DNA of 64,000 nt from Cyclobacteriaceae bacterium (GTDB lineage Bacteria; Bacteroidota; Bacteroidia; Cytophagales; Cyclobacteriaceae), in the NCBI GenBank assembly GCA_028281285.1, contig JANQKF010000018.1:1-64000 (forward strand), given 5' to 3'. The stretch's first letter is position 1. Each line of letters begins with the position of its first letter. Below, piece after piece: positions 51,289 to 52,376 of this stretch. A program made the translations under genes and the position numbers. Below the pieces are notes generated by a model that worked only from the letters and a program-made list of their open reading frames with translations, did no database searches and was not told where the DNA came from.

Positions 51289-51317
51289 GGAGAAACATAA
51301 ACTAAATGAATTTAACA

Positions 51318-51350
51318 TTTGGTTTTTAAAGAGGTGAATTCCTATTTTTG
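51318..51350 (+). promoter_or_regulatory. Bacteroidota sigma-A promoter of tRNA-Met
   Basis: TTTG (51318-51321)-N21-TATTTTTG (51343-51350), 12 nt before the tRNA. Confidence 0.7.
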
Positions 51351-51362
51351 CACCTCAATTTT

Positions 51363-51436
51363 GGCGAGGTAGCTCAGTTGGTTAGAGCGCAGGATTCATA
51401 ACCCTGAGGTCACGGGTTCAACTCCCGTCCTCGCTA
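51363..51436 (+). tRNA. tRNA-Met(CAT), probably elongator
   Basis: GGCGAGG/CCTCGCT acceptor, D-arm AGCTCAGTTGGTTAGAGC, anticodon loop TTCATAA, T-arm ACGGGTTCAACTCCCGT. Confidence 0.95.
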
Positions 51437-51472
51437 CTCCAAACCCTGACAGCAATGTCAGGGTTTTTTATA
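51431..51472. repeat. 42-bp direct repeat, left copy (tRNA 3' end plus terminator)
   Basis: TCGCTACTCCAAACCCTGACAGCAATGTCAGGGTTTTTTATA, exact match to 51836-51877. Confidence 0.97.
51441..51469 (+). terminator. Terminator hairpin, left copy
   Basis: AAACCCTGACA-GCAA-TGTCAGGGTTT plus T-run. Confidence 0.85.
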
Positions 51473-51479
51473 TTCGAAG

Positions 51480-51788
51480 GTGTTTTACGTCTACATTCTT
51501 CAGTCAGAGAATAATTTGACTTTCTATAAAGGTCAAACCAATGATTTGAGCAGTCGACTAAAAAGACATTATGGAGGTCATGAAGAATACACATCGAGAT
51601 TCAGACCATGGAGGTTAGTTTGGTATGATGTAAAACCAACCAGGGCCGAGGCAATGAAGCTAGAAAGGAAGCTTAAGAACCTATCAAAAGACCGAATAAT
51701 TAAATTCATACATGATTATCCTACCACAAGTATGATCAAGGGCCTTGACGTTCTTGATCTTTTAGATCAAAGTCGAGATGCCGACTAG
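51480..51788 (+). CDS. GIY-YIG nuclease family protein
   Basis: FYVYILQSENNLTFYKGQTNDLSSRLKRHYGG...LVWYDVKPTRAEAMKLERKLKNLSKDRIIKFI; GTG start. Confidence 0.92.
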   Translation: MFYVYILQSENNLTFYKGQTNDLSSRLKRHYGGHEEYTSRFRPWRLVWYDVKPTRAEAMKLERKLKNLSKDRIIKFIHDYPTTSMIKGLDVLDLLDQSRDAD

Positions 51789-51835
51789 GCGTCAGCATTC
51801 AACTTCCGTTCCTGTCCTGACCAGAGCGTCAGGAT

Positions 51836-51877
51836 TCGCTACTCCAAACCCTGACAGCAATGTCAGGGTTTTTTATA
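51836..51877. repeat. 42-bp direct repeat, right copy
   Basis: Exact match to 51431-51472. Confidence 0.97.
51846..51874 (+). terminator. Terminator hairpin, right copy
   Basis: Same AAACCCTGACA-GCAA-TGTCAGGGTTT hairpin plus T-run. Confidence 0.85.
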
Positions 51878-51980
51878 GCCAGATTTCAAAACCACATTTC
51901 TTTAAGCCGACTCATCCTTATTCACATACTTGTCGTTTAACCAAATAATAGATATATTAAACAAGATTGATTTTTGACTT

Positions 51981-52376
51981 ATGGGGAAAAATAAATTCGT
52001 TGCTGAATTTGAGATTAACGCTTCTCAGAGAATGCTCTTCCCTTACCTCAGTACTGCCAGTGGTTTAGCGCAATGGTTCGCGGATGATGTAAATATCAAT
52101 GAAGACAAGGTCTACAGTTTTCATTGGGATGGTGAAGATCATAAAGCAATGAAGACTTCCCAAAAAACTAATCATCATGTTAAGTTTGAGTTCCTCCCGG
52201 AAACCGAAGAAGACGAAGACGATCCAGCATATATTGAATTAAGGTTAGAGGTCAATGAATTAACCCAAAGCGTGTTTATCCGTGTTACTGATTATTCCGA
52301 CCTTGATGACCCTGAAGAGCAGCATGATCTTTGGGAAAACATTGTCTATTCCCTCAAAGAATTAATTGGGGGCTAA
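51981..52376 (+). CDS. START-like domain protein
   Basis: FVAEFEINASQRMLFPYLSTASGLAQWFADDVNI...YSFHWDGEDHKAM. Confidence 0.75.
   Translation: MGKNKFVAEFEINASQRMLFPYLSTASGLAQWFADDVNINEDKVYSFHWDGEDHKAMKTSQKTNHHVKFEFLPETEEDEDDPAYIELRLEVNELTQSVFIRVTDYSDLDDPEEQHDLWENIVYSLKELIGG

Follow-up and report, generated by a model that had tools for sequence, protein, structure and literature searches.

What is a short nuclease gene doing between two identical sequences, one of which contains the end of a tRNA gene? This question is raised by a locus in the window, i.e. the whole 64,000-nucleotide stretch of contig JANQKF010000018.1 (Cyclobacteriaceae bacterium, GCA_028281285.1) that was analysed. The 42-nt direct repeat at this locus, described in an earlier note, proved exact in position and sequence, with 100 % identity and a spacing of 405, and the GIY-YIG ORF between the copies lies where that note had placed it (Table 1). 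When the 5.16-Mb assembly was searched with a 33-mer from the repeat, allowing up to three mismatches, the two known copies were the only matches, which excludes a chance origin. As had been claimed, the left copy joins the end of tRNA-Met to its terminator, but it takes in seven nucleotides of the tRNA instead of six. A genome search found one copy of the elongator tRNA-Met, an essential gene, in the assembly. We consider it probable, at roughly 0.68, that the locus represents a minimal parasite of tRNA genes that resides on a bacterial chromosome and is of the free-standing homing-endonuclease type, its cleavage activity and mobility being what we infer from the evidence below. A group I or self-splicing intron was rejected, since tRNA-Met is uninterrupted and an Rfam scan of 51300-52000 returned the tRNA as the only significant match and no intron family.

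Table 1. Features of the tRNA-Met locus, in positions of the window.
Feature	Position	Strand	Basis
tRNA-Met(CAT), intact, host gene	51363..51437	+	ARAGORN; Rfam tRNA 70.7 bits; T-loop TTCAACT
Left 42-bp copy: last 7 nt of tRNA-Met (TCGCTAC, 51431-51437) plus terminator	51431..51472	+	
Terminator-like hairpin and T-run 3′ of tRNA-Met (AAACCCTGACAGCAATGTCAGGGTTTTTT)	51441..51469	+	sequence
Stand-alone GIY-YIG nuclease ORF, GTG start, 102 aa	51480..51788	+	Pfam PF01541, 62 bits (cut-off 22.6)
Probable decayed 5′ part of the pseudo-tRNA: ATGATCAAGGG versus TGAGGTCACGGG (the latter retained in G011)	51731..51742	+	inference; comparison with L191 and L043
Double hairpin inserted at the T-stem/T-loop border of the pseudo-tRNA (tRNA positions 53/54)	51743..51797	+	folding z = -2.9
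Pseudo-tRNA-Met 3′ part (TTCAACTTCCGT ... TCGCTAC), split by a hairpin	51798..51842	+	alignments, reading of sequence
Second inserted hairpin TCCTGACCAGAGCGTCAGGA, core common to hairpins of other elements	51815..51834	+	sequence
Right 42-bp copy: pseudo-tRNA end plus second terminator	51836..51877	+	

According to Pfam, the ORF product consists of the GIY-YIG domain and little besides, and no NCBIfam family scored above its cut-off. In an alignment of 26 relatives, Y5, Y16, G18, R26 and E62 were invariant and H30 nearly so. The two tyrosines, the arginine, the glutamate and the glycine of the YIG motif are thus conserved, and the product can be assigned to the GIY-YIG superfamily from its sequence. 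The nearest solved structures by sequence, PDB 1zg2 (E = 5e-8) and 1ywl (E = 0.0016), belong to UPF0213/short GIY-YIG proteins of the same size, likewise with the GIY-YIG domain only, and were deposited as hypothetical proteins.

The right copy of the repeat turned out to be more than the bare tRNA end and terminator that the earlier note had seen there. The order 3′ of the ORF is GGG, the double hairpin, TTCAACTTCCGT, the second hairpin, TCGCTAC and the terminator, and with the hairpins removed this sequence equals the 3′ part of tRNA-Met. Because of the start further upstream, at GGG and TTCAACTTCCGT, and the two hairpin breaks, we read the second copy as a 5′-truncated pseudo-tRNA-Met extending beyond the repeated terminator; the 42-bp repeat is its uninterrupted end. 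The C-terminal residues of the ORF are encoded across the pseudo-tRNA remnant into the double hairpin. For this pseudo-tRNA, a simple isotype-match test is weak, as the match is interrupted by the hairpins; the assignment depends on the 42-bp identity instead. A homologous double hairpin, with a folding z of -6.3, also interrupts the pseudo-tRNA-Met of the congener G011 between positions 53 and 54, and good tRNA sequence adjoins it on both sides. The same plan was found at the tRNA-Met of a related Bacteroidota contig filed as Crocinitomicaceae (L043), where a longer part of the pseudo-tRNA is retained before the hairpins.

A search for other GIY-YIG ORFs beside tRNA genes with duplicated ends, as the earlier note had proposed, found them in large numbers. 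The window's genome contains 12 GIY-YIG matches, and one besides the window ORF is tRNA-linked (L003): here the ORF precedes a tRNA-Leu, an incomplete copy of the tRNA-Leu 5′ part lies upstream, and an incomplete 3′ copy with a double hairpin follows downstream. The hairpin GATGCTGAC..GTCAGCA was rejected as a genome-wide REP repeat, as it has one exact genomic copy, which lies at the other tRNA-linked element. Of the nearest 80 loci from other genomes, 79 were examined, and in 57 of them a tRNA lies no more than 600 bp away; since the window protein served as the query for this set, the figure describes this subfamily and not GIY-YIG proteins at large. The tRNA-linked loci span Bacteroidota, Alphaproteobacteria, Rickettsiales, candidate-phylum bacteria and others; the relatives in Alphaproteobacteria and candidate phyla are likewise often tRNA-adjacent. 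Within the window's family, a same-strand tRNA adjoins 62 of 67 non-redundant ORF relatives, a count made on hits of similarity searches with the window protein after removal of the control clade and of rows at contig edges.

As a control we used 17 short GIY-YIG proteins from the window's genus, which form a separate clade in the combined tree (SH-aLRT 99). The contrast in linkage was near all-or-none: 111 non-redundant rows of the subfamily were tRNA-linked and 26 were not, compared with 0 of 17 in the control clade (Fisher p ~2e-11), and in the combined set the tRNA within 400 nt was on the same strand as the ORF in 96 clusters and on the opposite strand in 2 (binomial p ~3e-26), these p-values overstating the evidence because the rows are related. 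Isotypes cluster on the tree yet change often (50 changes observed versus 75.4 expected after shuffling), and proteins of 90 % identity are found at different isotypes, tRNA-Thr in L073 and tRNA-Leu in L080.

Repeats of a tRNA 3′ end are a common mark of integrase attachment sites, and the window element could be seen as the remnant of an integrase or transposase element which targeted the tRNA 3′ end and lost its mobility gene, leaving the GIY-YIG ORF as a passenger. We give this hardly any credence: neither a tyrosine nor a serine integrase lies between the 42-bp repeats, where the GIY-YIG ORF stands alone, the ORF is the sole gene between repeats across dozens of loci, and phage and plasmid collections yielded distant matches to its product and no close relatives.

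At the other tRNA-adjacent loci of the window's family, the layout is [tRNA-terminator]-[ORF-pseudo-tRNA-terminator]n, with n up to 15. A scan of 148 genomes of the window's family gave many regularly spaced matches, with arrays of 15 units at tRNA-Asp (L153, the last one truncated), four at tRNA-Pro (L157), three at tRNA-Val (L155), three at tRNA-Leu (L159) and others elsewhere. At 32 of 38 Bacteroidota loci, the best match of the stretch 3′ of the ORF, among the isotypes tested, was to the neighbouring tRNA. Bacteroidota pseudo-tRNAs start anywhere from nt 1 to about nt 60, so that no single fixed cut accounts for all right junctions. Hairpins are inserted at 53/54, at 59-61 or elsewhere in the T-arm at many loci, and in the anticodon arm at others. 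The second hairpin, TGCTGACC-NNN-GCGTCAGCA, is common to several genera and isotypes, with 15 matches within 200 nt 3′ of such ORFs (34 kb) versus 15 in 617 kb elsewhere, and ten double hairpins gave folding z values of -2.9 to -7.1.

Alphaproteobacterial and other proteobacterial loci carry a conserved hairpin leader of ~110 nt between tRNA and ORF. Right-hand tRNA copies start at host nt 57-59 in Alphaproteobacteria (L078, L087, L098, L114, L120) and left-hand copies end at nt 58-60 in other Proteobacteria (L066, L092), indicating a junction inside the T-loop; a right-hand copy is present in only ~5-8 of the 27 alphaproteobacterial-type loci. One refinement concerns the tRNA 3′ end at which the earlier note placed the insertion: the junctions and the added hairpins lie mostly in the T-arm.

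Both the arrays and the tRNA-end repeats would also arise by unequal crossing-over if tRNA genes and their terminators were passive recombination hot spots, at which a non-mobile GIY-YIG gene was duplicated through microhomology or slippage, without nuclease-driven homing; the varying start points of the pseudo-tRNAs agree with this. Such a hot spot seems quite unlikely to us, as the linkage is confined to this GIY-YIG subfamily and missing from the separate clade in the same genomes, it recurs at many isotypes in several phyla, and the hairpins concentrate at the borders of the T-arm.

Some loci show repeated units of other kinds. In L052 (filed as Poribacteria), eleven tRNA-like units with a 107-bp period precede a GIY-YIG ORF (1832-2976). 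In L063, ORF-less pseudo-tRNA-Pro units of ~121 bp stand in tandem between tRNA-Pro and a GIY-YIG ORF (1851-2413), and in L100 tRNA-Lys 3′ ends are repeated together with a hairpin-rich non-coding segment before a GIY-YIG ORF (2481-2888); both are possibly non-autonomous forms. A sequence similar to the L100 repeat segment lies downstream in L120.

Comparison of the tRNA-Met site among congeners revealed several states of occupancy. In the window, the ORF is intact and accompanied by the pseudo-tRNA. G009 has an intact ORF of 64 % identity and has lost the pseudo-tRNA, the ORF of G011 contains two stops, and G007 retains a scar with CAGCATTCAACTCCCGTC and no ORF. In most other congeners, a single tRNA-Met stands without an ORF, which provides the empty sites that the earlier note had asked for. 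At a tRNA-Pro site in another genus, an ORF fragment is present in G186, and G192, which has a nearly identical terminator, is empty. Filled and empty alleles, by which a free-standing homing gene is recognized, thus occur between species, not between strains, and the states at the tRNA-Met site include those of a cycle of invasion, decay and loss. Together with the tRNA-adjacent relatives with duplicated ends, the empty sites support the earlier reading of the locus as a tiny selfish element or tRNA-linked cassette. When terminators of filled and empty sites were compared for the native tRNA end, the flanks had diverged and no clean signal was obtained. In G007 and G009, partial tRNA-Met 5′ copies broken by a GC-rich palindrome (CCTGCC..GGCAGG) were observed just upstream of tRNA-Met (L015, L016).

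The tRNA-linked ORFs are under purifying selection where this was measurable, also between array copies, with a median dN/dS of 0.15 over 47 pairs that are not all independent. In combination with the changing occupancy, this indicates turnover of the occupied sites but maintenance of functional proteins. The low dN/dS is among the evidence for the reading that we favour; selection on array copies may also reflect a host function, which counts against homing. The nuclease could be a domesticated host enzyme acting on tRNA genes or transcripts, e.g. in processing or repair, and co-expressed with the tRNA, whose copies would result from ordinary tandem duplication; its same-strand site just 3′ of the tRNA terminator, at constant spacing, would suit that role. 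We regard domestication as unlikely: the gene is patchy, with empty, decayed and scar states within one genus, the isotype differs even at 90 % protein identity, the hairpins break the pseudo-tRNAs, and a terminator usually separates tRNA and ORF.

In the parasitic element that we favour, the unit would comprise the short GIY-YIG ORF, the pseudo-tRNA and a terminator directly 3′ of the host tRNA. The nuclease would cut the T-arm of an element-free tRNA gene, and the break would be repaired from an occupied copy, with the left end pairing with the intact tRNA and the right end with the 3′ half of the pseudo-tRNA. Such a repair would copy in the ORF and rebuild a complete tRNA. As the inserted element brings its own copy of the tRNA 3′ end, the host tRNA would be restored and the old 3′ end left behind as the pseudo-tRNA, which would serve both as right-hand homology arm and as remnant of the former end. 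Since the pseudo-tRNA carries no function, it may collect hairpins at the cut region, which the intact tRNA cannot. The observed arrays may have expanded by cutting or by unequal recombination between the repeated tRNA ends, and the decayed and empty states suggest that elements later decay and are then lost. The anatomy of the tRNA-ORF-pseudo-tRNA loci fits homing. The model leaves donor immunity unaccounted for, because the T-loop of the rebuilt tRNA-Met is unaltered and the hairpins disrupt only the site in the pseudo-tRNA. The pseudo-tRNA might also be a working part: transcribed as the 3′-terminal segment of the nuclease mRNA, it could bind or guide the GIY-YIG protein and bring it to tRNA genes of matching sequence. 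A loose analogy would be nucleases whose guide RNA is encoded across the end of their own gene. This role is conceivable, since the pseudo-tRNA is nearly identical to the 3′ half of the target and the protein has no obvious DNA-binding domain, but we rate it as highly unlikely.

The closest parallel is SegB of phages T4 and T6, a free-standing GIY-YIG homing endonuclease at the phage tRNA cluster (PMC13096335; PMC2988022; Brok-Volchanskaya et al. 2008). T6 SegB shows cleavage peaks within tRNA genes at the motif RAWTSGAAC, and tandem tRNA-segB repeats arise (PMC13096335). We identified the reverse complement of this motif, GTTCSAWTY, as tRNA nt 53-61, the T-loop consensus, which is not named in the text of the cleavage paper (PMC13096335); among the seven T6 tRNAs, two match it strictly (tRNA-Thr and tRNA-Gly) and six loosely. 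SegB and the elements described here have in common a GIY-YIG nuclease adjoining tRNA genes of many isotypes and the tandem amplification of tRNA and nuclease. In contrast to the chromosomal elements (~80-100 aa), SegB has ~221 aa with a long C-terminal region and resides in a phage genome, and a pseudo-tRNA with hairpins is not reported in its unit. A BLASTP comparison of SegB with the window protein (E = 0.54) gave no homology beyond the superfamily, the Pfam GIY-YIG domain being present in both, and the specificity of SegB is therefore an analogy for how the window protein may work, not for what it is. Mobile mitochondrial ORFs carrying a replacement gene 3′ end, in Allomyces atp6 and Glomus atp6, atp9, cox2 and nad3, likewise place an endonuclease ORF between the rebuilt gene end and the displaced duplicate, with a GIY-YIG enzyme in the atp9 case; in contrast, their hosts are protein-coding genes, most belong to other nuclease families, and neither tRNA targets nor arrays are mentioned (PMC3630166).

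Free-standing homing-type elements are thus known, whereas the setting in tRNA genes of bacterial chromosomes, where units with a pseudo-tRNA form arrays, is a real feature and new to the searched literature: no description of chromosomal tRNA-linked GIY-YIG arrays was found in the openly licensed papers searched, which is not proof of novelty. The recurrence of this arrangement suggests a class of minimal mobile elements, so far largely overlooked, that invade tRNA genes without killing them. A superfamily survey from 2006 left open whether GIY-YIG proteins outside the known homing and restriction enzymes are parasites, and did not note GIY-YIG homing enzymes in Alphaproteobacteria (PMC1564403). 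The arrangement suggests that a large share of the anonymous short 'GIY-YIG nuclease family proteins', also in Alphaproteobacteria, are parasites of tRNA genes. This would account for tRNA pseudogenes and odd hairpins near tRNA genes and would add a nuclease route to tRNA-gene duplication. Such a bacterial system would allow direct testing of targeting to a sequence common to nearly all tRNAs.

Small DNA-cutting enzymes with palindromes, and repeated tRNA ends, are also features of REP-associated (REPtron) elements and of integrase elements at tRNA genes, whose enzymes are Y1 transposases and tyrosine recombinases; the window element differs in having neither. On other contigs of the window's genome, a second clade of short GIY-YIG ORFs (L001, L004-L009, L011) is not tRNA-linked and lies between REP-like palindromic repeats, as exemplified by a 38-bp direct repeat at 1302 and 1843 in L006. 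REP-mobilising systems might have a GIY-YIG counterpart in this clade. The GIY-YIG ORF of L008 is flanked on either side by the initial ~70 bp of a protein gene (copies at 1373-1440 and 1903-1970, starting with ATGAAGAAACTCGTTGT), probably a Sir2-type deacetylase as judged from its sequence; duplication of a 5′ end therefore occurs at a protein gene, too.
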